Shown here: piece after piece, positions 4,019 to 59,817 of the stretch
Numbering within the stretch: position 1 is the stretch's first letter
Layout: each line of letters begins with the position of its first letter
Assembly: GCA_003024785.1 (NCBI GenBank)
Contig: PUQB01000248.1
Coordinates: 124,001-188,000, forward strand
Reading direction: 5' to 3'
From: Selaginella tamariscina
Taxonomy: Eukaryota > Streptophyta > Lycopodiopsida > Selaginellales > Selaginellaceae
Length of the DNA stretch: 64,000 bases
The notes under the pieces: model-generated
What the model saw: only the letters and a program-made list of their open reading frames with translations
Told to the model about the DNA's origin: nothing
The model's database searches: none
Made by a program: the position numbers and the translations under genes

Positions 4019-5490
4019 AGATTAGATTTCTAACGCCCAAAACACTTTTACTTCAGAAATTTGAGAATTTTAAATAAGGACCATGAATCAACTAATAAAG
4101 AATAAGTATTTTTCATAAATGGGGTATGACGTGTGCACTGATATCTATTATAACTATTTTAATTGCACAGACTAAGTTAATCTCACCACATTTCTCATTT
4201 AAATAATAAAATATCCACCATTTTTGTTTTACTTTTACATTTTTTTAATGAATTATTAATTCATTAATTTTATAACACGGTTTGCATAATGCCACGTACG
4301 CAGTTTTATTAATTTATCAAAAATGTAGGTTGGCTAGTAGAATTGTTTTATTTAAAATGTTATAAATCTTTTTGAATAGGCTTCAAAAATTAATGACAAC
4401 CCTTTTATATCATCTAATATTCAATGGGAGAAGTTCCGCTAGATTCAAAATAATGTTTTAAGATTTATAAAATAATTATACATTCATGCATAAATCAACT
4501 AGAAAAATTAGATTAAAATCCATATCAATGAATTCATTAAAACATTAATAATATTATTATCATAAATTTTAATATTTAAATTAATATTGGGATTTAGTTT
4601 GAAAATAGAAATCCTTACTAATTTTAAAATTAAAATTAAAATACTTAAATTAACTTAAAAATTTAAGTTTAAAAAATGACAATGTGAAATTTTAATATAA
4701 TATAATATATAAAATATAAATAAATGTTAACTCGAATGTCCATTAAGTGCCATTTAACATTGAATATTAAGTCTTCCAAAACAACTCAGAAAACTTAATT
4801 TAAATTAGAAATTAAGGGTCCATCCTAAGTCTTAAAGTGATTACCATTTAAAGACGATTTATATGTGCCTTCACTTTAGAAGATTTTCACCACTGTGAAG
4901 TCACACAGTATAATTAACTTTTATAATCAATTTTAAATAAGCTTAAATTGACATTGACTTTCGAGAGTCAAAATATGTCTTTTCTTGCGGTGTGTTTTAT
5001 TATCGTACATTTAAATAAGATTTTTAAAAATATTAATATAAATAATAAGATTATTAATTTTATTTATTTTATATTAAAAACTTAATATAATTGAAAAGCC
5101 TACAATTAAAATTTATACTTATTTTATTTTAAAATAAAATTTAATAAATTTAAATTAATATCGTAAGGATAAAAAGGTTAAATGTAACCTTCCCCGCGAG
5201 GCGCATCTGAACGGCTTTTAAGATGACAAGAGACTTATAATAAATAATTAAAATTAAATTATATAATATTTAATTTAAAAATAAAACGATACACTCTAAT
5301 GTTAAGTTTGAAATTGCATCGATGGAAAAAATCATTACAAAATCAATATTATTTGTGATGTGTGACATATTTTGAACAGTGTAAATGGCATATGAACCAA
5401 TAATAACACCATTTAAATGTTTAAAACAATAACACCATTTTGACGTTATTTAAACTGTAATTGGTATTTTAAATTTATTTATATTTGTTT
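4019..5490. repeat. AT-rich dispersed repeat, related to 37,690-38,600
   Basis: 4,050-4,350 matches 37,690-37,980, sharing 'cagaaatttgagaatt', 'accatgaatcaactaataaag', 'gatatctattataactattttaattgcac' and 'cataatgccacgtacgcagtt'. The 4,560-4,660 part resembles 40,330-40,460 inverted. It is a multi-copy noncoding family. The final 300 bases run AT-rich into the end of the alpha-glucosidase gene. No gene seen. Confidence 0.55.
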
Positions 5491-8190
<2,700 letters not shown>

Positions 8191-15697: not shown

Positions 15698-18600
15698 ATG
15701 GAGCCATTGTCCGACCAGGAGCTCTACGATCTGTCACAAGGAAGCACTTTTCATCGGATCTTTCGTACCAGCAACAGCAATGTAGTGGAAGTGAACTCAG
15801 CTGAGGATGTCGAGGATGCACTGTCCAAGCACGAAACAGTAAGGGTCACGTTTGAAAAAAACCCAATCTCACGGATCTCGACAGCACTCCTCTCATAGTC
15901 AAGCACCTTGCATTCATTGAGCAAAGCTGGTATGCTGATTTTATGTATGCATATGCACATAGGATGAAACATCTCGACACACTCTCGATTGGGGGATATG
16001 TCCAGGATTTCAATTGGCTCCATGAGCTAGACAAGCTCAGATGTCTACGCATCAAGGTAAGTAAAGACGCTGCTCAGGCTTTTATCACTGCGCTAAAGGA
16101 TTCAAAGTGTGTTATTGAGGAGCTTCATTTGCGGTCGGATAATGAAGAGGTCCTTGATGCAATTGTGTCCATGACTTCTCTAAGGAGGCTCTCTATAGGA
16201 GAGATAATGGTCCGGCAAGAGGTTTTGTTTAACCATCTCACCTCTCCAGAGTGTAACATATACGACCTGGAAATTGAATGGTTGGTGAAGAGTTACCTTG
16301 ATCTGGCAAATGTTCTCAGGCATCCTGACTGTACATTGCGAAGCTTAAGTTTATAAACTGGAGGAGGTTGGAACCTGAAGGGTACAGGCAGTTTCTAGAC
16401 GCCCTGAAATGTAGCAAACTGCAACATTTATCTTTATTCACCGGATGTTGATTTGGTTAAAGGGTTGGAGACAACATTGCACGAGGAGGATGATCTAAAC
16501 CTCACATCACTCTTATTGAGTACCTACTTTTGTTATTTCGATATGGATATGGAGTTGGTGCTCAGTTCCAAGTTGACTTATCTAACAGTGCACATCATGC
16601 TCCCCGGCCCGTCCTTGTTCAAGAGCTCGCAACGTTTTGAGCGAGCTATATCGACTTCAAGGCTGAGACATCTTACTGTCTCAGGACTAAGACATTTAGT
16701 GCCGCTTGGAGAACAACAGAAGCTTGTGGCTTTCCTGGACAGGAATATCGATTGTCCATTGGTGACATTGAACCTTGATAAGTGGAAGTCTGAAGTGTTA
16801 CACCAAAGCTGTTTGCAAATCTTGAAGCGGAACAAAATCTATCGAGAAGGAGGTCTTTTGGAAGAAGACCTAACCAGACCTTCAAATGCTAAACTTTTCA
16901 TATGTGGAGACACTGGAGTTGGAAAGACAACCATTCGGAAGAACCTTGCCAGAAGGGTTGGGATCCCCAGCATTTTCCAGTCATCAAAATCGACTTATGG
17001 AATAGAGCTTCAAGCTTTATGCTTTACAGATACAAAGTTGATCGTGTGTGACTTAGCTGGCCAATCTGAGTACCATGCATTTCATCACTACTTTGTAAGA
17101 GGCAGTGATAAAGAATGTTTCTCCTCGTTTGTAAGGCTCCCACAGCTGCAGACGATCAAGCAGAGCTAGAAAAACAACTCAAATACTGGCTGAGATTCAT
17201 TGTTGCACATCGTTCCTTGTCCGACCAGAGGCCAAGAGTATTGATACTTCTCAATTACTTCCCGCTAGCCAGAGACCCAAAAGTACAACGATGAACAGTT
17301 CGCCATCGATCCGATGTACAGCAGTAATCCAAGAGTACTCGCAGTGGATTGACTTTGGGGATACAGAAAGCATTAGTGTATATGGAATTGTGGCTACAAC
17401 TGTCAGCCAAGTCAGACAACTCAAAGGAGCATTGGAAAGAGCCTTGGAAGGAGTGTTGGAGAAGAGACCAAAAGTTCCATCAGTTTGCAATCACATCATG
17501 AATCAGCTGAATGCTAGTACACAGCAACCCAAGGTGGTGTCACTTAAGGAGTTTAGGGACATGTACAACATGACAAAGTTGGAGGACAATCGGTTTAAGG
17601 CATGTCTCATGCATCTTCACGATAGTGGAGAACTGGTCTACTTTGAAGATGACACCACACCAGACGAGATGCAACAGTTCGTTGTCCTGGATGTTCAGTG
17701 GTTCTTGCGAGATGTTATTGGTGTTTGTCTACCTCGGTTAGGAAGGAACTCGAATGACCCACGACCTCCGGCAGTGCATTCCATCACGAGTGTTCGTGCA
17801 GAACTCGAAACCAGGTGTGGAGCAGCAGCTCACACTCCTTACATACTGTCTTCACTTCAGAAGCTAGGTGTGGTGCTACGAAACCAGGAGAAAAATGAAG
17901 TTACGATCTTGCCTTTGTTGGAAAAAACTCTCCAGCAATGGGAACAAGAACGTGGGAGGCCCGAGTTTAGCAGCTACTGTTTCTGGGGAAGGAGATTCGA
18001 TTGCAAACACTCTGAGACAACAATTCTGCCATCTGGGATCTTCAACATGCTTCAAGTGACACTTGCAGGTATGTTTTCTCAACATAAGGTTGGACAAGGC
18101 TGGCTGTACCTGGTGGAGAACAGAATTCATGTGATTGTCAAGACTGGAGGCAGCAGAGGAGAATGGTATGATATGCATTGGGTCGATGTACTTGTTCGAA
18201 TACCATTCGACTGTGAGACGTACCTACTGGAGAAAGCCGAGAAGCTTTTTCAGGACGTGAACGTGTGCATTGCTTGTGGAGCTCGGAACTGGGGATGTCC
18301 CACACTGGAACTCGAAGAGAAAGTCATCAGGCCGCAACAAATCGAGAGCAACTTAAGTTCAAGCTTTGAGGATGTGTTTCCACTAGCTTCACTTGTTGAA
18401 GAGCTCAACATGGATGGTCGCACTTTGCTGTATGAACATACTTGGCCAAGTTTGCAGAGTAATCCAATCTATGAGCTCTTGTTGCCGAGTGAACGGGATA
18501 AATACTTTTCAGCACAGCAGAGCAACCTGAATGTCATCCGGTCCGAGGTACAAGAGTGTTTAGATGCAACAACTATTGAGAGTGACCATAGTACCACGGA

Positions 18601-19293
18601 TGGTACCAGTGAGTTAACCATTGGTGTACTCAAGCGGATGGAGTCCAACATAGTGAGGGAGATAAGAACTTCAGAAGCCAGGATAACAAGCGAGATTCAC
18701 AGACTGGAGTTGATTGTCAAAAACAAATGAATGCTCTACGCATGCAAGGAGGTGAGACTCTCTCTAAGCTCATGCTCCATCTGGACTTTGAGGCACCCAA
18801 GTACCCATACATAACAGACGAGAACAACTTCCTCCAGAAGCTGTCTCAATCTACATTCGGCTCTACTGTGAGACTTCATTTCTTATGTGAACACCACCAG
18901 CACTGTCATCCAGTGGAGAACCAACGAGGTATCGAAATCACTGTACGTCCGGAGTGGTTGAAGAAAGCAGCTCCAGTGTTAGTTCCAGCACTCAGAATTA
19001 TGTTCTTTGCACTCAAGGTGGTCGCTATTGTGGGTTTTGGTGTAGTCATTCCATCTCCGGCATCTGCATTTCCCAAGGGTCTCAAGGATGGAGCAATTCA
19101 AGCAGTAATGGAGGCAGCGTTTGGCAACGTTGATAAACACCTCAAGTCTGGATTTCCGACGAGAGACGAACTGAAAGAGTTTCATGAATCTCTTGATATG
19201 TTTTTGAAGGGAAGCGATCTGGAGCGTGACTTGGGGTTACGTAGGAGAATACAGAATGGGCGACATGTTTGGCTGTGCCAACAACATGAATGA
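15698..19293 (+). CDS. LRR-Roc-COR (Roco, TORNADO1-like) GTPase, intronless
   Basis: Start MEPLSDQELYDL at 15,698. Residues 1 to about 380 form leucine-rich repeats (LRRLSIGEI, LRHLTVSGLRHL). The Roc GTPase follows: P-loop GDTGVGKTTIRKN at about 16,905, and G3 DLAGQSEYHAFHHYF at about 17,052. A LLNYFPLARDP stretch near 17,250 sits where G4 is expected but lacks a canonical NKxD. The long COR domain spans 17,300-18,500, with LDVQWFLRDVIG and FPLASLVEELN. A coiled-coil-like segment precedes a final helical domain with a hydrophobic stretch (MFFALKVVAIVGFGVVI). The family includes plant TORNADO1, a signalling or scaffold GTPase. No introns are visible in 3.6 kb, unlike the neighbouring genes. 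Frame changes fall near 15,860 (poly-A/poly-C), 16,345, 16,440, 17,120, 17,290 and 18,725 (poly-A). Confidence 0.85.
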
Positions 19294-22792: not shown

Positions 22793-22803
22793 CGTGACAG
22801 TGG
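22793..22803. repeat. Target-site duplication of MULE-1, left copy
   Basis: CGTGACAGTGG here is repeated exactly at 30,639-30,649. Eight to eleven bases is the usual range for Mutator-like elements. The same family of flanking repeat near 40,020 lacks an insertion, so it can serve as an empty site. Confidence 0.75.
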
Positions 22804-22835
22804 AGTCCACAAAAAGAGGGCTTCCGGGCTTGGAC

Positions 22836-22905
22836 CCGGAATATTCTAAAGAATCTACCAGAATATTCTTAGAATATTCCTAAATATTCTTAGAATTTAG
22901 GATTT
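22836..22905. promoter_or_regulatory. Subterminal GAATATTC cluster, left end of MULE-1
   Basis: Several GAATATTC or GAA..TTC units lie in 70 bases, e.g. 22,839-22,846, 22,861-22,868 and 22,872-22,879. They mirror a cluster at the right end. They could be transposase binding sites. They also resemble heat-shock elements, although the spacing here is not the perfect 2-base alternation seen at the right end. Confidence 0.45.
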
Positions 22906-23009
22906 TGGCTCAGTCGGCAATTAACAACAAAAAATATTTAATCATAGCCATGTTTATACTGTATTATTAAAGTTTTATTTCAACACCAAAGAGTACAATT
23001 CAACACTTG

Positions 23010-26000
23010 TCACTTCTTCTTACGATTGAGCAATGCTGCAATTCGTGAACCACCAGTCCTACTTGACGTCGCTATTGGTTGGGTTGGGATTTCCTCTGGC
23101 TGGATGTTCTCTTTAATCCTGTTCATAGCAATTCTCCCGAGCTCAGGGTTCTTCTCAGTCCCAACAATGTTTCTCCCCAGCTCGATAGCTGCAAGCATTG
23201 AGGACCCCGTACCACTGCCTATATCCCAGATAAGATCACCTGGCCGGGTGAGTCGTTCTATCACGAGCTGCATCAATCGAGTGCTCTTCGGTTGGTAGTC
23301 CATCCTGCATGTGAAGATAATGGTAAATACTTAATTGTTGAAATGAAATGCCTACCATGGTTCTTGGAACCGCTCAGGATTATCAACAAGAATTGTTGAT
23401 GACAAACGCAGTGGATTATCGCGCAATCCTCTAGATGCATCTTGGAAGACAAGAAGGAGCAGGATGCTCTCCTGTTAAAACATCAAAATCATTAATGAAC
23501 TTCATGAATAAAGAAAAAAGTACCTTCATCTTAGCCCCAACCACGCCCTCTGTAGATGTAGTACGTTGCAGCAAGTTGAAGGTCCACCACACTTGCAGCT
23601 CGGACAACTTGATCCCAGGTGTTTGCTGCAGCAAACACAACCAACCAACCATTTGCAGCCATATGCATACCTGCAAACTGGAGTGCTTCATCGAACTTCA
23701 CTGGATCAAGGTAGAGGTATGGCGTATCACTCGTTGTATTTCCTGGCAAGGTCCCATTTGGAAGGTCGAAGATCACCAAGTTGAAACCATATTCTCCCGC
23801 AATATGCTGGTAGCGAGTCTGGCTGTCAGCTGTATGGTACCTGGCCACCTGTGTCTGAACTTTTCTATAAGGAACCAGTCTAGCGTCAGGAACCTCCTCT
23901 TCCTTCTCATCCGTGAGCACGGCCTGTTGCATCTCCTCGATGTCATCAATCGCCAAGAAATTATCACCTCGAGTTGTAGCAAGTGAAGGGACGAATGTGA
24001 CCAAGTCATCCTTGATGTCCATGGTTCCCTGCGATGGTAGCACTTCAGATAAATTGAAGAAGGCAGCTGGATCGCGAGTAGTGGAGGTGCCAGCTACTGT
24101 ATCTGAGGTCTTCTTTGACTGCTGCACAGGCTGACGCCGCTTTGCCTTGGCCTTTGTCTTCTTAATGAAGTCGACCTCTGCCGGATCCCATGAGATGCAT
24201 GGGAGATCTTTTGAGTGTTCATTGTAGAGATCCTTCTCCCATGTTGGTGGTTGCCCAGGTGGATAATCAAGCCAGAACGGTACGTGTACACGCTCGAACT
24301 CTGTCAGGCCAGATCTTGTCTTCGACCACATGTGTGGTGCTTCCATGTAATCTGACCAGAATACCATAGTCTGTGTGTGAGGCACCTTTCTCGCTGCGAC
24401 ATACCTGTAATGAACATATAGTAGTGTCAGAATGTAACAATGTCAAGAAGATCATCCTTACCTCCAAATCATCCTTCTTGCTGTCTCTTCGTGTTCGAGG
24501 AACTCTTTCGGCTCTATGGAGTAAGTGAACTTCACACACTCATGGAATGGCTGGAACATCACGTTCTTGCATTTTACCCGCACTTCATCGTACCAAGTCG
24601 TGAAATCTGTAACCGGCCTGCTCCACTCGCCATCCTCGATGAGTCCCGTGAGAATCTGTACTGCCTCCTCTCTGATTGCCCGCCAATACAAATCGATAGT
24701 AAACCACCTTATCCACTCCTTATCCTGAACACCCGGCAATCCAAGTGTCTCTTGCTCTCTCTTCAGATCGAGACGTACCAGTTTATTGAAGTACATGATT
24801 CTCGTCTCGTTTGGAATTCTCGCCCTTGAAAGCGCGTACAGCTTTTCCAACCCCATCCATCTGCATTGTTTCCATGTGATTTGGGTCACCTTGTCGAACC
24901 ACTCTTCACCCAATGCAGGATCGATGATGGCTAAGATCTTCATCATGCGCTTGTCATGCTTAATGTAGACCTGTTGTTGCTCCTGGTATTTGTTGCCTTT
25001 GGATGCCCTTGCAGCCTTCTCAAGATCATCCTCAATCTCACTCTGTAATTCACAGACGTAATCAACTAAGTAATATAAGTGTGAGACGTGGTACCTCAAA
25101 AAAGATCTTTGCACAGATCAAATTCGGAAGTGGATGCCAAGCTTGTTGTCCAGTCGCGCTTTCCTTCCACTTTCTTATGTCATCTCGTTCCTTGTCACTG
25201 AGCCTGGCCAAGATCTTCGCTGTGCCCTCCTCACTGGTGCAACATGTCTTCACAGATAGCAGAAGATGTGGCAGTGTGGTTTGCACTGCCGTTGCGGAGG
25301 AACTGCATATTTGAAAAGCTCGAAGTTAGTTAATCCTATGATCTAGAGGTCACTATGTTTACCTATTAATTTGCTGAAACATTGTCACAAGCTGAAGATT
25401 ATCCATGACCCCAGCACGGATGAAGCCTGAACGCACTCTCACTGCCCACTGATCTTATCTTCCGTGTCTTCTGTGTACAGCTTCTGAAGCACCTTTAGCC
25501 TGTGATTACCATCCCAACAGATGAACTTCTTCATCGAAAGCATTGGTGCCCATTGCCGGAACATGTCGGACTGAAGCTCCTCCTCAAAAGCCAAATGCTG
25601 AGCATACATCGCTTCATCGCTTCTCAATGCTGCCAGATCTGCATCTGTCATGGGGTCCCCAACTTGAAGGATGAACTGAGTGGTGTTGCGCAAATAACCA
25701 ACTGCCTTCTTGAAACTCCTAGTCAAAGATTCCAGATCCGCTGGATTGACTCTCCGCACCTGCTCATTTCCCAGAATTCGGCAAATAGGGACATCCGGTG
25801 CCTCTCCATATTCTCGGATTGTGATCTTCGCGAGAAGACGCACTGCACTCTCCGAATGCATGCTGGCTGCAATGTTGTAAACTTCCTCATTATCTGGCAC
25901 TTCTGCTTTCCCCTTCTTCTTCTTCTTAGCAGCCTCTGAATCTCCAGCAGCTTTGCGTCGTCTCTTCTTGCTCTTGGGTTCATCCTCTTCGTCACTCGAC

Positions 26001-26320
26001 AAAGTCACTGCGCATGAGGCTTGTGTGCCTTCTGTCTGCTCCTGTGTCTCCTGTGGTAAGACATCATCCTCAACTTCTTCAACAAAGTCTGATTGTTCTT
26101 GTTGGGGTTGAACTACATCCTCTTGCTCTCCTGACCAGTCCTGCTGGCTTGCCTGTTCAACTGGAGCATCACTTGAAGGTCCTTGTTCCTGAACCACAGC
26201 CAGCTTCCTACTTCCTCTCCCACGACCCCGACGCCCTCTCTGAATTGCAGCTCTAGCTTCTGCTTCTCTCTCAGTAGGCTCCTTCATCTTCTTTTCTTGT
26301 AAACGTTGTGAAGAGCGCAT
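23010..26320 (-). CDS. ParB-like domain plus N6/N4 amino-DNA methyltransferase
   Basis: Predicted AdoMet-dependent methyltransferase acting on the exocyclic amino group of adenine or cytosine in DNA. Six exons: 25,363-26,320, 25,095-25,302, 24,462-25,042, 23,524-24,404, 23,356-23,471 and 23,010-23,304, all with GT..AG borders and 51-60 base introns. The start MRSSQRL leads into a basic stretch (RRGRRGRGRGSRK) and an acidic low-complexity region with KSKKRRRK, a likely nuclear signal. A ParB-like fold follows, with VNPADLESLTRSF and, at 25,499-25,510, WDGNHR. After a helical middle region comes the methyltransferase: motif IV VIFDLPNG (23,752-23,766), then QPKSTRLMQLVIE and the AdoMet loop DIGSGTGS (about 23,195-23,235), then GTEKNPELGRIA. 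The catalytic motif before the AdoMet loop is the order of the bacterial beta-type class (PF01555-like). Frame changes at about 25,445 and in a G-run near 23,535. About 1,000 residues. Confidence 0.82.
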
Positions 26321-26399
26321 CTACAAAAGCAATAAGGTTTAACAAAAAACTGTAATAAATGTTCAAAGATGTTTAATAAAAATTAAAAAAACATACTAG

Positions 26400-26935
26400 C
26401 CCTCACAGTCGGCGTGCCGACTGAGAGAGCAGTTGCTGTAAGTCCCAGTCGGCATGCCGACTGGGCCTGGCATCAAAGGGAGTCCCAGTCGGCATGCCGA
26501 CTGGGACTGGCATCAAAGGGGTCCCAGTCGGCATGCCGACTGGGACTGGCACAAAGGGAGCCCAGTCGGCATGCCGACTGGGACTGGCTCAAAGGGAGTC
26601 CCAGTCGGCATGCCGACTGGGCCTGGCAACAAAGGGAGCCCAGTCGGCATGCCGACTGGGACTGGCAACAAAGGGAGTCCCAGTCGGCATGCCGACTGGG
26701 ACTGGCAACAAAGGGAGGCCCAGTCGGCATGCCGACTGGGACTGGGAACGAAACAAGGCCCAGTCAAAATGCTAGGTGGGACTAGAACAGTCAACCCTAG
26801 TCAAAATGCTGACTGGGGCTGGAACAGTCAACCCCGGTCAAAATGTTGACTGGATCTGGAACAGTCCACCCCAGTCGGCCTGCCGACTGGGACGGACAAC
26901 GAAGTCAGTCCGAGTCGGCAGGCCGACTCGGATTT
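26400..26935. repeat. Tandem array of a 22-bp palindrome (GTCGGCA family)
   Basis: Eight exact copies of CCCAGTCGGCA followed by its reverse complement start at 26,444, 26,484, 26,523, 26,561, 26,600, 26,639, 26,679 and 26,719, so spacing is 38-40 bases. The spacer is near-constant (actggcaacaaagggag). A degenerate copy lies at 26,406, and two variants follow at about 26,872 (ggcctgcc centre) and 26,911 (gagtcggca/ggccgactc). Between 26,760 and 26,860 are three decayed units where GTCGGC has become GTCAAAA. The array lies between divergent genes. Open frames on both strands here are translations of the repeat, not genes. Confidence 0.95.
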
Positions 26936-26939
26936 CTTG

Positions 26940-27394
26940 CAACTGTGAAGAGATGTAAAAAGATGAACAGATCATGAAAAGATCATGAGCAGATCATGAA
27001 GAAATCAGAAAATACTCACCCCCTGGAGCCACACTTGCTCCACGCTATGCCCCCAAATGCCCCTGCTCCACGAAAACCTAGCCGCCCTAGCTGCCCTAGC
27101 CGCCCTAATTGCAAAACCCTAGCCGCCCTAAATCAATTAAAAACCAACCTAATTTCTGTAAACATATTGCATGCATGATCGCCACTTGTACATAGTAAAA
27201 CTTTTTAATTTACAAAAAACCTACCCAGACGCAGTAAATTAATTTCACTCTTCTACCCAGACGCACGCAATTAATATTATTTTTAATATTTGTCAATGAA
27301 ATGATTGCCTCACGACTGACAAACACATTAACCATCGTGTGTAATATGTTCATTGTCTTTGAATTTTAACTTTTGTTTGTTCCATTTTTGCTAC
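26940..27394. promoter_or_regulatory. Leader and promoter region of MULE-1 transposase
   Basis: Non-coding, with a 'agatcatgaa' triplicate near 26,970, a CCGCCCTAG(C) repeat at 27,080-27,130 and a repeated 'tacccagacgca' block at 27,223 and 27,256. The transposase ATG follows at 27,395. No clear TATA box was recognised. Confidence 0.35.
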
Positions 27395-30300
27395 ATGGCA
27401 AGAATCAGCTACAATGGTGTTGACAAGGACTTCCCTGCAGATGAAGATGGTATTGCATTTGTCTTTGAAACAGATCTCAGGTCTGCATTTGACATTCCAC
27501 CTTGGCAATCTTTTAAAGTGCTGCATTTGATGTCTGTTGTTGGTGGAGATGCTGCGAATGTTGAGGTAGAACCAGAAGGGGCAAGAGCTAGCAGTTTTGT
27601 GTATTACACACTTCTTCCTTCCAAAGGACCACTATTCCGGTTGGAGACAACAGATCGGGACAATTCTATGGTAACAATACTTCGCAATAGTCAGAGATGT
27701 AGGATTGGGAAGCAACTGGTGGTCTCGTCATCGATTCAGCAAGTTGCTGAGGTCCCAGAAGATTGCAACGGAAATGTGATTTACGAGTTGCCAGCACACG
27801 AAACAATGAAGGACAAGTACAAGGGATGAATAGGAAGGATGGGTGTGATTACTGGACTCAACGCTGCACAACACATTGGAATGTTCCAGCTCGTGTTAGT
27901 CGCAGTTCATGTATTGGCCACATGAAATGCGTAAAGGAAACATGTCCGTTCATCAGCTTCAGTAAGAAAGCAAATGACTGCCAATTTAAGGGCACCATTG
28001 ATAAAGTCCAGTTATCTTCAGATGGTAGAGTGCTTGGAATGAAGTGTGTGCATTGCAACAATGAGCCCCTTCTAGTGCAGACATGCTCCGTTGTTGCATA
28101 TTACATAATTCCAGATGATATCACATGCACGAGGCTTTTCATCCATCTTGGAGAACATCAACATCCACGTAGACCACCCGAATCCATCATAGAGTTTCAA
28201 GAGCACGCAATATAATTTTGGAAAAACTGGTAACAGATTCTGGAGATGTATCATACGACAAGGTTCTGTCAGATCTACTACCACTCACAAATCACCGCCG
28301 GTAAGAAAAAAATTATTATTCCTTTTGGAGATGCTTAACCTTTCCACTGTAGAACAAGAGAATGGATATCTCAGGCTAGAACAACAGACACTCGTTTCAA
28401 AGAAGGTTACGAAGGACTTCTGCAGTTAAAGAAGAAGCTATCAATCCCATTCATACATGTTATCCACATACCCGGAATGGACCTCAACGGAGCTGAAGAG
28501 CAGCCTTTAATCTTCAAAATGACGGTTGCCGGCCCAGGATCCGGAATAGACTACATTAGAAGGTGTCAATCTGGTGGTGCTAGACCACACATATCGTATT
28601 GATGATTGGTGTACACTGGGAATACATCTCTATGATCCATTGTAAGTATTAACATATCTATGTTTTAAAATACTTACTAATATAATGCACTTATGTTTGT
28701 GTAGTTTAAGGTCGATGGTGACACTTGCTTATGGTGACATGATCAGGGAGGATAGTGTGGCGGTGATCAAATTTTTGAACACTATGCTTCAAGTGTGCAG
28801 CAAGCAAGGACTTCATAATGTGAACTTTGCGGGGTTCATGTCAGATGAGTCAGGTGCAATTTGGTTAGCATTGCGTCAAGTTTTCAACAATGGGTCAAAG
28901 ATGAAGGAAGAGAAAGGAGTTGTTTGTTCCATTACATGCAGTCAGTGCGTCAAGTTACAAAGAAGTGGATACTTGAGGAACACAGGGAGGAGCACATGAA
29001 CCTTGCACGCTCATGGCCTGCAGCACTAACCAACCAAGATAAGTTGGAACGACGAGTAATGTTGGAGTCATTTTGGGAAGGCAGGTCCAGTAACGTTAGC
29101 GCTTTGCAAACATGGCTGTCATGGTGGGCAAGACATGAAGATCATATTTCCATGACAGAGATAATTGACTTGACAGAAGATGGTGTTGCGAATGTGCCTA
29201 CCACTAACAACTCCGAAGTTGTTCATGCAAGAGCACGAAGAGCAAGGCTGACGAAGCGTGTTCCTTTGTTGGAGGCAACAATGTTAGATTTAACAGATGC
29301 TGTTTTCCAAAGTGCAAAGGTCAAGGCATCATTTGAAGGGAGATATTCAGGCACAGGTCCTTCCATGGAAACTCTTCTGAAACGTGCACAGCAGAAACTT
29401 TCAGCGGGAAAATCAGTGTCTCCAACAACTTTTGCAAATCTTGTTAGTGATGAAGAGCATCTTGCAAGTCCAGAGTTTGCCTCTACAACAAATGTTCGTG
29501 TTCGAACCGTTCGTCAACCGTCAACTGGGGACCATGGGATTGATGCACTTCGTACACATAGACATGACACACAATATGCAGAACAAGTCATCCCAAATGC
29601 ACGCAGGAAAAAACTCAAGTTTCAAGATGTCAATGTCACTGAAAGAGAGACGTTGATGACTCAGTGGGCCATCAGACGCATTGGGGAGGCAAGTCAGGTG
29701 AAATGTCTAGGTCTCACTCAGGACGGTAACAGCAAGTGTGGCAGACCCATAGGATATCCACAAGGATTTCACGGTAGACGGCAATATACAAATGCATTTG
29801 GGAACATTGAGTTCACTCATCAGATGTTATGGTTCTGCCCACGCGATTCTTGTTGCTTCAGACGACCATATGCAGGGATTCCTCCTGAGAGTATTCCAGA
29901 AGTTCCAGAGGTTTGGCCAGTTCAAAAAGGAACAAACTTGAATGCAAATGAGGTTGAAGCTCTTCTGAAAGCAGGATTCAAGTTGGAGGGATTTGAAGAA
30001 ATGGTAGACGACAGTAGTAGCCGAATGGATCGAACACCATCACCACCAAGAGGAGAGGGAGCACATAGAGTACCAACATACCATGGACGGAGTGTGCGAA
30101 CACCAACAAGAATGTCCAAGGAACATGAGAAACATTACAACCAGGCAAAGATTCTTCAAGGTCGGATCAACAACGTGGAGGTGGTTCAAAGAGGGAAGAC
30201 TGAGGCCTTCATTGTCTCTGCAGGCATGCAATCTGCTAAGGTAACAATTTCTACTGTTCCGTCATGCACTTGTGCAACTTTTCAGAAAGCCAAGAACTGG

Positions 30301-30453
30301 AGCCCCTGCCAACACATGTATTTTGTGTACACTCATGTTCTTGGATTGGACCCAACGATTACTTACTTCTTACAGAGGCGGACCCTTACTCCAGCAGAAG
30401 TGCATCGGTTATTGGTTGATTGCAAGCGCAATGTCGAACCTGCGACCTTTTAA
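27395..30453 (+). CDS. Mutator-like (MULE) transposase with SWIM zinc finger
   Basis: DDE-type transposase expected to cut and move MULE-1. Exons are 27,395-28,300, 28,353-28,641 and 28,705-30,453, with 52- and 63-base introns. The N-terminal region has an ISYNGVDKDFP stretch. A WRKY/GCM-like zinc site follows: C..C pairs at 27,910-27,950, GMKCVHCN, and a HLGEHQHP pair near 28,150. The catalytic core has LVVLDHTYRIDDW (first Asp, about 28,580), LAYGDM and NFAGFMSDESGA (second Asp, about 28,840). The C-terminal SWIM finger reads CTCATFQKAKNWSPCQH at about 30,265-30,315. Start chosen at ATG 27,395 because the upstream open stretch has only a TTG. Frame changes near 27,810, 28,205, 28,570 and 28,890; the last 1.5 kb is open. 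Confidence 0.82.
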
Positions 30454-30454
30454 G

Positions 30455-30514
30455 TAGTCGGTATAGTAAAGTCTAGTCGGCAAATAATTAGCGTTTTTCA
30501 CTTGTTGGTCGGCA
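30455..30514. promoter_or_regulatory. GTCGGCA half-sites near right end of MULE-1
   Basis: AGTCGGT at 30,456, AGTCGGCA at 30,475 and GTCGGCA at 30,508 repeat the half-site of the central palindrome array. One more half-site, AGTCGGCA, lies near the left end at 22,912-22,919. Their presence at both ends and the centre suggests that a protein encoded by the element binds this word. Confidence 0.5.
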
Positions 30515-30549
30515 TTTTATATTGAAAGTTAAAGATAATCTACTTGGCA

Positions 30550-30615
30550 GAATATTCTAGAATATTCCCTTTATTTGACAGAATATTCCTGGATATTCGG
30601 GAATATGCGAAAAGC
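30550..30615. promoter_or_regulatory. Perfect heat-shock-element-like motif, right end of MULE-1
   Basis: 30,550-30,567 reads GAATATTCTAGAATATTC: four GAA/TTC units in exact 2-base alternation, which is the consensus for heat-shock-factor trimers. A further GAATATTC begins at 30,581, with TTC..GAA at about 30,597-30,603. It lies just outside the transposase 3' end and mirrors the left-end cluster. It could drive heat-induced expression or act as a transposase site. Confidence 0.5.
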
Positions 30616-30638
30616 CCGTTGTACGAAGCCCGGATCCT

Positions 30639-30649
30639 CGTGACAGTGG
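30639..30649. repeat. Target-site duplication of MULE-1, right copy
   Basis: CGTGACAGTGG, identical to 22,793-22,803. Beyond it the flank 'attaactaagcatgtt' continues the dispersed repeat family also seen uninterrupted at 40,040. Confidence 0.75.
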
Positions 30650-40701: not shown

Positions 40702-42191
40702 CTATCCTCCCCTCTGCGGTTGTGTAGATGGTGATGGATCTGATGGTCCTGGATCCGTGTGAGCTGGGCCATCTAAGGTATGACCAAATGTACTCAACGA
40801 GTCTCGAACGACAAACCGTTTCATTCGAACCACGTGAACTATCTCAACCTCATGAGATCCCACAACTTGATATACCTGAGGACCAACCTTTCGGAGTACT
40901 CGGTAGGGACCAAGCCACTTGTGTAATAAACCAGTTGCAAGCCCAGGTGCAGTCAGCTTGGGAAAACGTACCAGGACTAAGTCACCGTCAGCAAAATCTG
41001 GTGGAATTTGATGTCGTGCATTGTAAGAAGATTGCTGCCGCATTTGAGCTCGACCAAGATGTTCAGCAGACTCTGCACGCAGAAGAGGCAAAACAGCATC
41101 CAAATGTCGAGCCCACATCTTTGCATCCTCGGCACGTGGCAGATTCGATGATAACCCCAATTCACTAGGCAACTTAGGATCATATCCATACAATGCCTTG
41201 AATGGAGAGATACCAATCGAACTCTGAATGCCTGTTACATAAGCAAATCTCAAACATCGCAAATACCAATCCCAGTCCGTGTGATTGAAGTTCACATACT
41301 TCGAGATCATACCCTTGAAGGTCCGATTCAATCGCTCCACCAAACCATCAGTTTGTGGATGATACGGAGAGGCAAATGAATGTTTTACCCCTAACCTCTC
41401 ACACAACACTCGGAATACCTCTGCAATGAAAGCGGGGCCATTGTCTGATAACATCCGCTCTGGACAAGAATGCTGCAAAACCACATTATCGAACAGAAAC
41501 AAAGCTGTTGACATGGCAGTTGCATCCGGAAGAGCACCAACCTCCACCCATCGAGTTAAATAATCAGATACAACAATGATGTACTGGTTACCTTGAGAAG
41601 AACGTGGAAAAGGTCCCATTAAATCCACTGCAATTAACTCAAAAGGGCGAGAGACATTGATGGATTCCAACACCCCATGGCCCGAGTCGTAGAGGAATTC
41701 CGAGTTTGACAATGGGACAACTTTGAATATACCTGATCACATCACCACGCATGCTGGCCAATAAAATGATCGGCGCAGCTTCTCCAACACTCGTTGGTGA
41801 CCAAGATGACCTCCAACAATAGGTGAATCATGATATGCTCGAAGAAGGTGTGGAACATATGTAGAGGGTACAGCCAAACGCCATCTGTCCTCTGGATTTG
41901 TCCCAATAAAATACAATAAACCATCCTGAAGTCGAAACTGAGCATGATATTGTCGAAACCGAGGTTCGGAAGACGGATTGCAAACGCATCGCGTAATTGC
42001 CTCGTCCATGGTTCATGTTTTTGAGCATCCTGCCACTGTTCCAAGGATGGTAAGTCGGCATCGAATACCTGAGGGGCTTGTATCAAACCGAATGCTGCAG
42101 CTACTGCATGAGCAGGCAAAGTGGAATCGGAGAGGGGTGCTCGAGAAAGTGCATCCGCATCCACCATTGTTCGCCCAGGCCTGTGCACCAC
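40702..42191 (-). CDS. Retrotransposon integrase
   Basis: Inserts the element DNA into the genome. An HHCC zinc site (H near YHDSPIVGGHLGH) lies at about 41,770-41,850. The DDE core is intact in the 40,702-41,712 frame: VDLMGPFP, LSDNGPAF and the final Glu in DGLVERLNRTF. A C-terminal region with DLVLVRFPK and LGPYRVLRKVG follows. A frame change near 41,715-41,745 separates the zinc site from the core. Confidence 0.88.
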
Positions 42192-42198
42192 CTTAAAG

Positions 42199-43857
42199 TT
42201 ATATACCTGGAGACGTAATGCCCATCTGGCTACGACCCACTAAATTCTTCCGTTTTAATAAGGAAGTGACAGCAGCATGATCACACTCCAAAAGTGTTTC
42301 ACTCCCATGTAAGTAGGCATGAAGTCGTTCAAAACCCCAAACAGCAGCAAGGCATTCTTTTTCAGTAGTGGAATAATTCCGCTCAGCCGGCGTGAGTACT
42401 CGACTAATGTAAGCCACCGGGTGTCGAATTGAAGAATCCACAGCATCAGTTTGCATCAATACACCACCAATACCAACATCTGAGGCATCTACTCGTAAAA
42501 TGAACGGACGAGTAAAATCTGGGTATTGAAGCAATGGTGGAGTTGTCAGGAACTCTTTTAACTGGTCAAATGCCTGCTGACACCTGCGAGTCCACCTGAA
42601 AGATACCTGTGGACGAACTAACTCCCGAAGAGGGGCAGTTCGATCAGTGAGATGATCGATGAATCGACCCAAGTACTGCACCGTGCCCAAGAAACGCTGG
42701 ACTTCCTGTACTGTACGGGGACGAGGGAACTCTCGAACAGCTCGCAACTTCATTGGATCCACCTGTAAACCCTCTCGAGATATACGGTAACCCAAGTAAG
42801 TGGTGTCGGTCGAACCAAACACACACTTTTCAAGTTTCAACTTCAGGCCAACTTCTCGAAATCGATCAAGAACGCGCCGTACATCACGAATGTGATCCTC
42901 CCAAGAACCAGACCCATGAATGAGCACATCGTCGATAAAATCGGCAGTGATATCAGGCATATCGGAAAGAAGCTCATCCATCATGCGTTGAAAGGTGGCA
43001 GGAGCTGAAGTCAATCCAAAAGGCATGACCAAAAACTCGTAAAGACCAAATGGTGTCCGGAAGGCCGTTTTTGGAATATCCTCCTCAGCCATAGGAACCT
43101 GCCAATATCCTGATGCCAAATCCAACTTAGTAAACCATCGACTCTGACCCAAACGATCTAATAGATCGGCAGAGTTCGGAAGTGGATAGACATCTTTGAT
43201 GGTAACATCGTTAAGAGGTCGGTAATCCACACAAAATCGGAGAGATCCATCAGGCTTGGGAACCAAATGAGGTTCACATGCCCATGGACTCCGTGACGGA
43301 CGACACACTCGTTTACCAATCATATCAGTAACAGCTGTTCGCATGGCTGATAACTCCTTTGGTGACCTGCGTCGAACCGGGACTTTGAAAGGCTTTGCAT
43401 TGCCGGTGGGTATACAGTGTCGAGTCTTCACACGTGCACCTTGGGACAGATCAAATTTGAACAAACTTGCATACTGTTTCTTAAGTTGTTCGATGCAGTG
43501 TGCTCGACACTCAGGTGACGGATCCGGCATTTGAACCTGTTGAGATGAACACCACCCCAAGACCGGAATCAAAGGAGCTGTATGCGTGATACAAACAGCA
43601 ACAAGCTTCTCTGGACGTAAAGGAACAGACTGCAAAGACACAGACTCCAAGCGTAATACAGGAGGAGAGAGTGAAAAATCACATGTACCTTTCGACTGCT
43701 TTAACCAATCACATCCCAGAATGATGTCAAAGACCTGGGAAGGGACAACCCTAAGAGACCCAGAGGGAAACTTACAGTTGGCACCCATAACCAGCGTAGT
43801 CGAAGTGGTGTACTGTGATACTGCACGAGACTGCCCATTACCATATAAAATGTGCAA
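42199..43857 (-). CDS. Reverse transcriptase and RNase H of gypsy element
   Basis: Copies element RNA into DNA. Hallmarks: RFCVDYRPLN, KLDLASGYWQ, PFGLTSAPATFQRMM and the catalytic FIDDVLIH (the usual YxDD is FIDD here). The RNase H-like part begins FILRVDASDVGIGGVL and continues to NYSTTEKECLAAVW. It is one open frame of 552 codons; the connection to protease and integrase needs frame changes. Confidence 0.93.
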   Translation of the reverse strand: MHILYGNGQSRAVSQYTTSTTLVMGANCKFPSGSLRVVPSQVFDIILGCDWLKQSKGTCDFSLSPPVLRLESVSLQSVPLRPEKLVAVCITHTAPLIPVLGWCSSQQVQMPDPSPECRAHCIEQLKKQYASLFKFDLSQGARVKTRHCIPTGNAKPFKVPVRRRSPKELSAMRTAVTDMIGKRVCRPSRSPWACEPHLVPKPDGSLRFCVDYRPLNDVTIKDVYPLPNSADLLDRLGQSRWFTKLDLASGYWQVPMAEEDIPKTAFRTPFGLYEFLVMPFGLTSAPATFQRMMDELLSDMPDITADFIDDVLIHGSGSWEDHIRDVRRVLDRFREVGLKLKLEKCVFGSTDTTYLGYRISREGLQVDPMKLRAVREFPRPRTVQEVQRFLGTVQYLGRFIDHLTDRTAPLRELVRPQVSFRWTRRCQQAFDQLKEFLTTPPLLQYPDFTRPFILRVDASDVGIGGVLMQTDAVDSSIRHPVAYISRVLTPAERNYSTTEKECLAAVWGFERLHAYLHGSETLLECDHAAVTSLLKRKNLVGRSQMGITSPGI

Positions 43858-44057
43858 GACCTTATCTGCTCGTAAGGGTAATGAGCACCGATGCGCAGAG
43901 AAGTAGTTATGGAAGACATACTAGATCCTGTATCCACAAGCACTGTGACTGAAAGATCATTCACTCGTGCAGAAAATGTGAAAACTGGATGATTTGGTGG
44001 AACTTGCAAACCCTTGATATGCATAGCGAAAAAACATGGAGGTGAGTTCCATCGCAC
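43701..44057 (-). CDS. Retrotransposon aspartic protease
   Basis: Cuts the gag-pol polyprotein. The active site LVDTGSSMSSI (DTGS) is clear at about 43,925-43,960. The frame overlaps the end of the RT frame by about 150 bases, so a one-base indel is likely there. Confidence 0.8.
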   Translation of the reverse strand: MRWNSPPCFFAMHIKGLQVPPNHPVFTFSARVNDLSVTVLVDTGSSMSSITTSLRIGAHYPYEQIRSCTFYMVMGSLVQYHSTPLRLRWLWVPTVSFPLGLLGLSLPRSLTSFWDVIG

Positions 44058-45161
44058 GGGATCCCTCCGTCGCCCGTACGATTACTGGTTTTCCGCAACA
44101 GATCCACCGCAAGAGAGCGTCATCATCTGGAAGCTCATCATCAGACATAATGGCCGCCACAGGTACACCATCCGGAACATATGGTCGCCAGCCTGGATGT
44201 GGTGGACGCCAATCAGGATACACATCGCATGCCCGCCAAGTATGTCCAGGTGCCCAACAGGCCCAACAATGAACTTGATTGGGTGACCTGCATTGTTCCG
44301 ATTCCTCCTGTCACGAATCCGTGGATTTTGACCACCACGGGCAGGAACTGGAGCAGGTGCAGGACGATTTCGTGGAGGTGGTCCACGGGGTGGGCCCCGA
44401 GGTCGACCACGAAAGGCTTGTCGTGCGGGCACATATGCAGCAGCATCAACCTCCATTGGATCAGCACGCTGAACAAGAGGAGCAGGTAACCCAAGGGGAA
44501 CACGGCCCTCACCAGGCACCAACTCAAAACGTTGAGCTAGTGCAAAAGCTTCCTCCAATGTGGTAGGACGAAGAGCCCGAACGAATCGAACAAGTTCGGG
44601 TCGCATAGTTGGCCATAACATACCGAGCTTAATAGGCTCAGGCATGTTAGGATATGCACGCCGAACTAAATCCCCGAACCTAATACTGAACCGCATAACA
44701 GACTCACCAGGATGTTGTCGTATCGCATGCAGTTGTTGGAAAGCATCATCTGAATCCTCAACTTTGCCAAACGTACGTTTGAGGCATTCCGTTAACCGAT
44801 TACTATTGGCTTGAATCTCCGCAGCCAATCCATTATACCACTTGAGCGCAGGGCCTTCCAAACATGTAGGGAATTCTCTGAGAGCACGGGCCTCATCCCA
44901 ACCATGGTAACGAACAATGACTTGGAAATGATCAAACCAGTGGTATACATCATCTCCCGGATCACCACAAAAAGATCGGGGTCGAACCCTCGGATTTGTG
45001 GCCTGTGAAGAAGATGAAGGAGTACTAGAAGCAGATCCCCCGGCATGAGGCTCAGACGGGGAAGAGGAGGACGGACCCTCAACAAAGCGCTCCAACAACT
45101 TAGTTTGTGCATCAATAGCAGTAGCAATAATGCTAAAAGCCGTCTCCATGTTCATTGTCAT
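43965..45161 (-). CDS. Retrotransposon gag with zinc knuckle
   Basis: Structural polyprotein. The main frame 44,082-45,161 starts MTMNMETAFS and has the retrotransposon gag stretch DVYHWFDHFQVIV, ALKWYNGL and HPGESVMRFSIRFGDLVRRAYP, then a Pro/Arg-rich linker. The zinc knuckle CWACWAPGHTWRAC (CX2CX4HX4C) near 44,250 lies in another frame, so a one-base indel separates it from the main gag frame. Confidence 0.88.
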
Positions 45162-45214
45162 GGAAACAAGAAAAAGAAAAGGCGGAAGAAAGGAATACCC
45201 AACTTCTCCACCAA

Positions 45215-45415
45215 TGAAAGAGCAGATATATTAAATGAAAATCTGATATTAGTTTACAAAAACCCTGCTTATATACAGGAGACCTCCTGCCACGTGGCAC
45301 ACATGCGACACGTGGCGCTGACACATGGGGGCCAGATCACCACCCATGTGTCACTACGCATGTGCGTATATACACATGCGTATATACGTACTTTACTGTA
45401 TATTAGTATCTTACA
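45215..45415. repeat. LTR of gypsy element (5' LTR for minus strand)
   Basis: 201-bp partner of 40,500-40,701, TGAAAGAGCAG to CTTACA. Both hold CACGTG cores within 'gccacgtggcacacatg' and 'acacgtggcgctgac', possible G-box (bZIP/bHLH) sites, and a short inverted repeat 'gcgtatatacacatgcgtatata'. Confidence 0.9.
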
Positions 45416-58934: not shown

Positions 58935-59817
58935 AGCTCATCCATGATATCGGTATCAGAATATGGATCGAAAGTGATTGAAATGAATACAAGCAATGTT
59001 TTGGTTGAGCATAGCCTTCTGAGGAGAGTCATCTACTACTAACATTTGTGCGTTCTTCATTATCCTTAAGCGACTGATCTCCCCATGAGTCCCAATTATT
59101 CTTTCATTCTTGAAGAAGTATGGCTTGCTTTCCTTTCTTATATTGTGAAATTCGAGAGGTTTATAACATATTCGCTGGTCAAAAATCCAATCTTTACGAA
59201 TCACCTCTTCTGCAACACTACAATGTTTCTTAATTAAATTCAACAGCGGTGTTAAGTTATGAATCTGCATGCATGACCAAATCCCCACAAGCGCACCCAT
59301 CTCCTTAAGCTTTTGAAAGAGACGATCCAACCCTGGACGAAAAATATAATCATATCGAAATTTACCATGACAAGGAATGAAATCTCCTTGTTTGATTTCT
59401 TTTTTTCTATCCTGGGGCCTTTGTCGATGAAGCAGAACACCATTGACATCCAACAACACAATATGGCCATGAGTAACATGAGATAGCGTTGCCTCTTGAA
59501 TACTTTGCAAATCACTTGTTTGCTCCCTTTCACATTTATCTGTTGCCACTATCTCATTGCCTATCCCTTCATCATTTAATTGTACATCATCCTTACAAGA
59601 TTCAAATATTGCATGCGCTGAAGAAATTGATTTCGGAATTGAAACCAATAAAAATGATGATGAAGTGGCCCCCATGGTAACGATGTTTTGAGCTGCATTA
59701 TTATCCATTTTCCGCATGAACTCTGTCATTCTGACATGTGGCACAAGAATTGTCGCCAACCCCTCTCTTACCTCATGCCAATGCTGAAATCCATGTTCTC
59801 AATTATTTCATTACATC
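58935..59817 (-). pseudogene. FCP1/NIF-like (HAD) phosphatase, N-terminal part, split by hAT
   Basis: HAD-superfamily protein phosphatase of the FCP1/SCP type, which removes phosphate from Ser/Thr. Main exon at or below 59,759, with MTEFMRKMDNNAA as likely in-frame Met region; a short exon at 59,772-59,816 (CNEIIENMDFSIGMR) may precede it. HAD motif 1 reads IVLLDVNGVLL (about 59,440-59,470): the first Asp is kept, but the usual second Asp of DxDG is Asn. Then FRPGLDRLFQKLKEMG, motif 2 WSCM, and motif 4 LVVDDSPQKAM (about 59,010). A frame change near 58,975 is needed to reach DPYSDTDIMDELVN before the hAT. The Asn at the acid-base position suggests weak activity or none; related plant proteins also read LDVNG. 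Confidence 0.75.

Follow-up and report, generated by a model that had tools for sequence, protein, structure and literature searches.

A transposon with two divergent genes

The window analyzed here, a stretch of 64,000 nucleotides from contig PUQB01000248.1 of Selaginella tamariscina (assembly GCA_003024785.1), contains a transposon of 7837 bp at positions 22803-30639, which carries a transposase gene on the plus strand and, divergent from it, a methyltransferase-like gene on the minus strand. The window copy belongs to a family (family A) that has a diverged relative (family B) in the same genome, and profile and alignment evidence supports the second gene as a beta-class (PF01555-type) methyltransferase-like gene of prokaryote or phage type. 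The host assembly (300.7 Mb) is eukaryotic, and chlorophyll a/b-binding proteins were matched in it 26 times (each exon counted separately); the element resides in a photosynthetic eukaryote in well over a hundred copies. A plain host gene was ruled out by this copy number and by the element ends. The parts of the element, in window coordinates, are as follows.

22794-22802, no strand: left target site duplication GTGACAGTG, identical to 30640-30648
22803-30639, no strand: whole transposon of family A, with ends common to other copies and a 9-bp duplication on either side
22803-22840, plus strand: left terminal inverted repeat region (GAGTCCACAAAAAGAGGGCTT...), inner limit approximate
22912-22918, plus strand: subterminal AGTCGGC of the left end
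26404-26945, no strand: array of AGTCGGC-NN-GCCGACT palindromes, mostly every 39-40 bp, directly upstream of the methyltransferase start
27395-30453, plus strand: transposase gene of several exons, broken in the window copy, with a DDE-like core containing C-x-x-H and a weak C-terminal SWIM match
30475-30481, plus strand: subterminal AGTCGGC of the right end
30600-30639, minus strand: right terminal inverted repeat region, reading inward GAGGATCCGGGCTTCG, inner limit approximate
30640-30648, no strand: right target site duplication GTGACAGTG, matching the left copy

Five of eight full-length family-A copies inspected are flanked by a perfect 9-bp target duplication, two by one that agrees at 8 of 9 positions and one by none; no duplication was seen at a rearranged (L014) or a truncated (L020) copy. 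Among nine family-B loci inspected, six had both ends in view, with three perfect duplications, one agreeing at 8 of 9 positions, one at 7 of 9 and one with an 8-bp match shifted by one. Mutator-like elements (MULEs) duplicate 8-11 bp of target, typically 9 bp, and their transposases have a C-x-x-H motif after the second acidic residue and a C-terminal SWIM finger. Duplications of 9 bp were found in both families. In the transposase, we take LDHTYR, MSDESGAIW and CLFHYMQS, read without a profile, to be the DDE-like core; CLFH is present in families A and B, and the C-terminal SWIM match (E 0.014-0.024) fell below the cut-off. Because of its terminal inverted repeats and 9-bp target duplications, together with the C-x-x-H motif, the element is best called Mutator-like.

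The methyltransferase-like protein

The minus-strand gene was modelled as six exons between positions 26320 and 23010, with five GT..AG introns that measure 51-60 nt in the window copy. This model bears out the single spliced gene proposed in an earlier reading of the letters of the window (the first-pass annotation), which had missed two frameshifts in the window copy, one at the end of exon 1 and one near the end of exon 4.

25363-26320, minus strand: exon 1, with a low-complexity N-terminus and the ParB-like pattern (GNHR codons at 25499-25510); frameshifted in the window copy
25095-25302, minus strand: exon 2
24462-25042, minus strand: exon 3, a middle region without known domain
23524-24404, minus strand: exon 4, with motif IV DLPN at 23756-23767; frameshifted near its end in the window copy
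23356-23471, minus strand: exon 5
23010-23304, minus strand: exon 6, with the S-adenosylmethionine (AdoMet) motif I DIGSGTGS at 23202-23225 and the match to PF01555 positions 165-220

The C-terminal region with DIGSGTGS matches positions 165-220 of the 221 positions of PF01555 at 36.3 bits (E 7.5e-9; curated cut-off 26.7), and a joined family-B piece matches the profile at 36.8 bits (E 5.1e-9); profile positions 1-164 have no Pfam match in the element protein. PF01555 is the sole Pfam family above its cut-off in this protein. Phage DNA methyltransferases in PHROGs match the exon 6 region (best E 3.4e-11), and PDB matches include DpnA, MboIIA and CcrM, the top five for the family profile being N6/N4-type DNA methylases or putative ones. 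When the last 314 residues were compared with phages by tblastn, 604 records had E values of 1 or lower, and the first-ranked of them had E 2e-5 and 31% identity. An hhalign comparison of the element enzyme with six phage methyltransferases (probability 98.1%, E 7.9e-14) spanned motif IV through motif I in 178 columns, and FNLVIFDLPN falls on motif IV of those enzymes; with the phage fusion protein P0002 as sole partner, the alignment was limited to the AdoMet part (probability 27%). The AdoMet motif is invariant between families A and B in seven aligned copies. The expectations that the spliced protein would match PF01555, that DIGSGTGS is the AdoMet loop and that DLPNG upstream of it is motif IV, in beta-class order, were thus confirmed.

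The classical tetrad of amino-methyltransferases is [DNS]PP[YFW], and the element protein departs from it. The tetrad reads DLPN in the window and in 40 of 40 readable copies from both families, which represent 39 of 40 loci (L014 was read twice and L039 was unreadable) drawn from the 150 best PF01555 matches, with more distant copies outside the sample. The tetrads of the six phage enzymes are DPPY, DIPY, DIPY, SPPY, DPPY and DPAY, in which the second and third places vary and the final tyrosine is present in all six; the forms DPPY, SPPY and NPPY are named in passages of PMC8885841. In DLPN the aspartate and the second proline are kept and the aromatic residue is absent in both families, a departure that the first-pass annotation had missed. 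Since DLPN is common to the two families and its flanking residues (GEYGFNL, LDPVKF and ALQF) are invariant in seven aligned copies, the tetrad change appears to predate the split between A and B and to have been retained. Loss of the aromatic residue in both families makes a classical amino-methyltransferase reaction, which yields N6-methyladenine (6mA) or N4-methylcytosine (4mC), doubtful, and weakens the earlier claim that the enzyme may mark DNA in one of these ways.

The N-terminal part had been read in the first-pass annotation as a ParB-like domain around GNHR. The pattern RRVNP.DL..L..S.KK, followed after an insertion by CWDGNHRL..LQKLY, is common to families A and B, and it is this short pattern that speaks for the domain; profile searches did not. 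With one sequence per family, Pfam at E up to 10 gave no family over this part, including the proposed PF02195, which likewise found nothing in a genome-wide search (E up to 1). No PHROGs family matched it at E up to 5, there was no ParB among the four matches of a PDB profile search (all E 0.64 or worse), and the sole match in phage records was a DNA primase piece (E 2). Compared with six phage ParB domains by hhalign, it gave a probability of 4% and an E value, for a single comparison, of 0.01; the helix RRVNPADLESLTRSFKK was in register. A low-confidence structure model has the order strand-strand-helix, four further helices and strand-helix, to be set beside the strand and helix order of the ParB/sulfiredoxin fold. 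A ParB-like domain in the element protein is therefore graded as possible. The pairing of such domains with methyltransferases in phages, which the annotation had invoked, does occur: one phage protein has ParB followed by a DPPY methyltransferase, the proposed domain order.

Two families, their motif arrays and other genes of the window

Twenty loci of 10 kb divide into nine of family A (L014, L015, L017 and L020-L025), which are 96-99% identical to the window element by best methyltransferase-side match, and eleven of family B (L009-L013, L016, L018, L019 and L026-L028), with about 65-72% DNA identity to it. The head-to-head layout of the two genes is identical in both families. A transposase match was found in nine of the eleven family-B loci (partial in L010 and L016; none in L011 and L013), and the gene is absent from the fetched stretches of L014 and L020 in family A. 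At L014 (670-8109), two family-A methyltransferase halves are arranged head to head on either side of a short motif array, with no transposase gene in the fetched stretch and no visible target duplication. A family-B copy at C1293 (L001, 1-850) apparently adjoins copia-type gag sequence, as judged by eye.

Genome-wide, the best 150 of 739 PF01555 candidates were scored and all 150 match, as do the best 150 of 1857 candidates for a transposase piece, 131 of which are family-A-like and 19 of which have 79-80% identity. Among the matches listed, at least 82 of the 131 have a PF01555 exon-6 match 5.6-6.5 kb away on the opposite strand, and at least one of the 19 has such a match at the expected place. 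Four of the other 49 family-A-like matches were fetched, and the methyltransferase gene was present in all four. Between one copy of each family, protein identity is 59% for the ParB part, 66% for exon 3, 48% for exon 4, 70% for exon 6 and 64% for the transposase part. Over pieces of four methyltransferase exons and a piece or pieces of the transposase (one copy of each family per piece), the proportion of nonsynonymous differences (pN) is 0.21-0.34 and that of synonymous differences (pS) 0.77-0.85, with synonymous sites saturated. Because pN is far below pS, selection must have maintained both genes during at least some of the period after A and B diverged. In addition, because both families keep the two genes in one layout with amino-acid change far below synonymous change, the methyltransferase gene does not look like random cargo. 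The profile match, the hhalign alignment, the shared ends and the pairing of the two genes together support the proposal that a prokaryote- or phage-type beta-class methyltransferase-like gene is a standing part of a high-copy transposon.

Of 28 family-A pieces of exon 4, eight are identical to the window over 870 bp. C>T and G>A changes account for 116 of the 153 substitution variants in the methyltransferase half of this family; 33 of the 116 fall at CpG, giving 0.147 per G or C of a CpG and 0.058 elsewhere (2.5-fold). The corresponding counts are 94 per 318 at CpG and 174 per 1391 elsewhere in family B, and 13 per 196 and 30 per 1376 in the family-A transposase half. This bias would be consistent with cytosine methylation (5-methylcytosine, 5mC) by the host. 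Exon 4 has 44 gap columns and 34 substitution variants; because its indels exceed what plain decay would lead one to expect, some assembly error may be present. Assembly noise as the sole cause of the frameshifts was rejected, given that 96 top-score transposase-piece rows are 100% identical without an inner stop (among the best matches listed) and that a second abundant family of the window, described below, is stop-free in 111 of 113 scored rows. A comparison of decay between the two genes was dropped, as copies had been chosen by one gene or the other.

The motif AGTCGGC, often as CAGTCGGCA, forms a tandem array between the two genes and recurs near the ends. The array unit is mostly 39-40 bp in family A and 137 bp in family B (6.5 copies in L028), and at the transposase end of L028 the motif is repeated at 19-bp spacing. 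Common to both families is a divergent inverted pair, TGCCGACT and AGTCGGCA separated by about 24 nt, with a spacing of 31 bp in A (39 pairs; 13 at 30) and 32 bp in B (31 pairs; 2 at 31). In both families the array directly precedes the start of the methyltransferase gene, at 26404-26945 for a start at 26320 in the window and at 4813-5690 for a start at 5897 in L028. Compared with 100 dinucleotide shuffles, the window element with 1-kb flanks has 24 occurrences of AGTCGGC (shuffle mean 0.4, maximum 2), L018 and L028 have 20 each (means 0.57 and 0.79, maximum 4) and L009 has 8 (mean 0.78, maximum 5). Outside the element, eight 10-kb stretches of the window that overlap in part have 0, 0, 0, 0, 1, 0, 0 and 1, and the degraded copies L020 and L011 are poor in the motif (1 and 2, respectively). 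The arrays and subterminal sites look like putative binding sites of an element-encoded protein.

Elsewhere in the window, a second very abundant protein-coding family is represented at 61969-63054 on the minus strand, together with 60769-61683 and 58956-59798. In its own genome 113 of 6143 candidates were scored; among these best matches listed, all 113 have 94-100% identity and 111 lack an inner stop. Its stretch NPNFNYRPLNQERVAELMEKM resembles ParB by eye, with no Pfam or hhalign support, and an adjoining open reading frame encodes an NIF/FCP-type phosphatase. The window also contains a ROCO-type gene at 16408-19293 on the plus strand (Roc PF08477, E 5.6e-7; COR-A PF16095, E 7.8e-10) and, on the minus strand, a fragmented glycosyl hydrolase family 31 gene at 5675-6894 (PF01055, E 5.7e-27) and a gypsy-like retrotransposon at 40702-45230, which has a reverse transcriptase/RNase H reading frame (RVT_1, E 3.4e-35) adjoined by gag-like and integrase-like frames identified by eye.

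Proposed function and comparison with known systems

We propose that these elements are a Mutator-like transposon family of autonomous type in which the second gene specifies an accessory protein, derived from a methyltransferase, that acts on the DNA of the element itself, a proposal that we judge about evenly balanced between right and wrong. It is the simplest joint reading of the data. In its favour are the common layout of the two genes in A and B, their frequent pairing across the genome, the low amino-acid change relative to synonymous change between the families, the motif arrays and the CpG bias consistent with host 5mC; in addition, differing repeat units seem to have grown around one motif, as described for the targets of VANC. 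In such a scheme an element-encoded protein would bind AGTCGGC, and the accessory protein would retain AdoMet binding and would function either as the writer of a non-standard methyl mark or, its motif IV being altered, as a sequence-addressed regulator that counters host silencing in the manner of VANC. Since motif IV reads DLPN, we lean slightly towards binding and regulation, that is, anti-silencing, over classical 6mA/4mC writing. The fuller version, in which a DNA methyltransferase of phage or bacterial type, its catalytic motif remodelled to DLPN, has turned into a sequence-addressed epigenetic self-regulator that reads CAGTCGGCA arrays around the element's own promoters and ends, for VANC-like anti-silencing or self-marking, is offered tentatively, as less likely than not.

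Several observations weigh against the proposal of an accessory protein acting on element DNA. Variation of exon 4 among recent family-A copies is neutral, with 25 nonsynonymous and 9 synonymous variants (ratio 2.8; expectation 2.6), and each of 12 full-length copies has a frameshifting indel, as judged against the column majority, in at least one of the six exons, so that no selection on the methyltransferase gene is visible in the latest burst; each exon by itself is free of such indels in at least three of the 12. The transposase alone may be the reader of the motif. Finally, PF10551, the Pfam MULE profile, was matched neither by the joined window transposase (E up to 1) nor by the core pieces of A and B (E up to 10), although it does find other, canonical elements in the same genome (77 matches among the best 150 scored). 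The first-pass idea of capture by a Mutator-like element thus stands with respect to a transposon with a transposase gene, MULE-like ends, a 9-bp duplication and C-x-x-H, and lacks a Pfam match to the MULE family.

If the protein were instead a working beta-class enzyme that places 6mA or 4mC on element or host DNA, as the first-pass annotation had suggested, the PF01555 match above cut-off, the invariant AdoMet motif and the confirmed position of motif IV would all be accounted for, and a precedent exists in bdelloid N4CMT, a PF01555 enzyme that became a eukaryotic DNA methyltransferase (passages of PMC8885841). We consider such active self-marking rather unlikely: an asparagine occupies the tetrad position of the tyrosine found in every aligned phage enzyme, and the same passages report that N4CMT activity is abolished by SPPY -> APPA, although Ser and Tyr were removed together in this change (PMC8885841). 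A substrate other than DNA, such as RNA or a protein (e.g., histones or the transposase), would fit the altered motif IV and the weak matches of the AdoMet half to L11 methyltransferase (E 0.027) and PRMT7 (E 0.058); given that no Pfam family other than PF01555 exceeds its cut-off and that DNA methylases, some putative, lead the PDB matches, we regard it as improbable. Least probable, and to our minds very unlikely, is that the gene is a captured piece without function for the element, as in Pack-MULEs. The frequent frameshifting indels of recent copies and the neutrality of exon 4 within the recent burst are what such a passenger would show, whereas the matching exons of both families, the strong synonymous bias between them and the gene's presence in all four fetched unpaired transposase copies argue otherwise.

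Relatives were sought in about 5.8 billion proteins, with none found for the joined methyltransferase (E up to 0.01; best 7996 word-sharing candidates), the exon-4 alignment (E up to 0.01) or the joined transposase (E up to 0.1). Pattern scans of IMG/VR gave 161 matches for exon 4, 600 for exon 1 and 161 for exons 4-6, and GTDB species genomes contributed a further 111; no match in either collection was confirmed. Because the searches require shared exact words or patterns, the patterns lie outside the AdoMet motif and these collections are poor in spliced eukaryotic genes, this absence is weak evidence. A literature search by titles and abstract starts found no description of a PF01555 enzyme in a Mutator-like element. 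The authors of one earlier paper are said to discuss methylases in transposons, and a prior description of such an element is possible.

Epigenetic enzymes encoded by mobile elements are already known in retrotransposons and some DNA transposons. If the proposal holds, a beta-class amino-methyltransferase-like gene kept across diverged Mutator-like families, together with target-like arrays, would be a testable new case of a transposon steering its own chromatin state, and the altered motif IV raises the question of whether proteins of this fold can catalyse reactions beyond the known 6mA/4mC set or act there purely as regulators.

The closest parallels differ in what they share with the element. 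Phage and bacterial PF01555 enzymes, for example the ParB-methyltransferase fusion of Latilactobacillus phage TMW 1.2272 P1, have the same motif order (IV, then X-I) and AdoMet region, and the fusion also has its ParB part N-terminal of the enzyme, as the element protein does by pattern. Unlike them, the element gene is spliced, eukaryotic, transposon-borne and about 1010 aa long, with DLPN for DPPY, DIGSGTGS for forms like DPFMGSGTT and a ParB part unseen by any profile. VANDAL elements mostly lack terminal inverted repeats, which our element has, and its accessory protein, unlike VANC, is methyltransferase-like, with a predicted function. In array layout the two compare well, since VANDALs are DNA transposons of MuDR type that carry an accessory gene and whose non-coding tandem repeats hold short motifs and differ between related elements, and the VANC targets described in parts of PMC5735166 are variable tandem repeats of non-coding regions. 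Element-encoded DNA-methyltransferase homologues, in algal or protist settings, are described in sections of two further papers: Dam-like enzymes in DIRS and others in retrotransposons that include the Dnmt3-bearing elements of dinoflagellates and Klebsormidium (PMC5890265), and methyltransferase domains in virus-borne Mariners (PMC3627910). Those elements, unlike ours, belong to the retrotransposons or to Mariners carried by viruses, and their methyltransferase domains are Dam-like, of the C5-cytosine type or of other kinds (PMC5890265, PMC3627910). SET methyltransferases and VANC regulators in MuDR elements, and TET/JBP in fungal transposons, are likewise noted in part of PMC12730594. Finally, bdelloid rotifer N4CMT resembles the element gene as a eukaryotic, intron-containing PF01555 enzyme, there of bacterial origin, and differs from it, according to passages of PMC8885841, as a host gene that is not transposon-borne, forms an allelic pair in Adineta vaga and encodes SPPY and a chromodomain.

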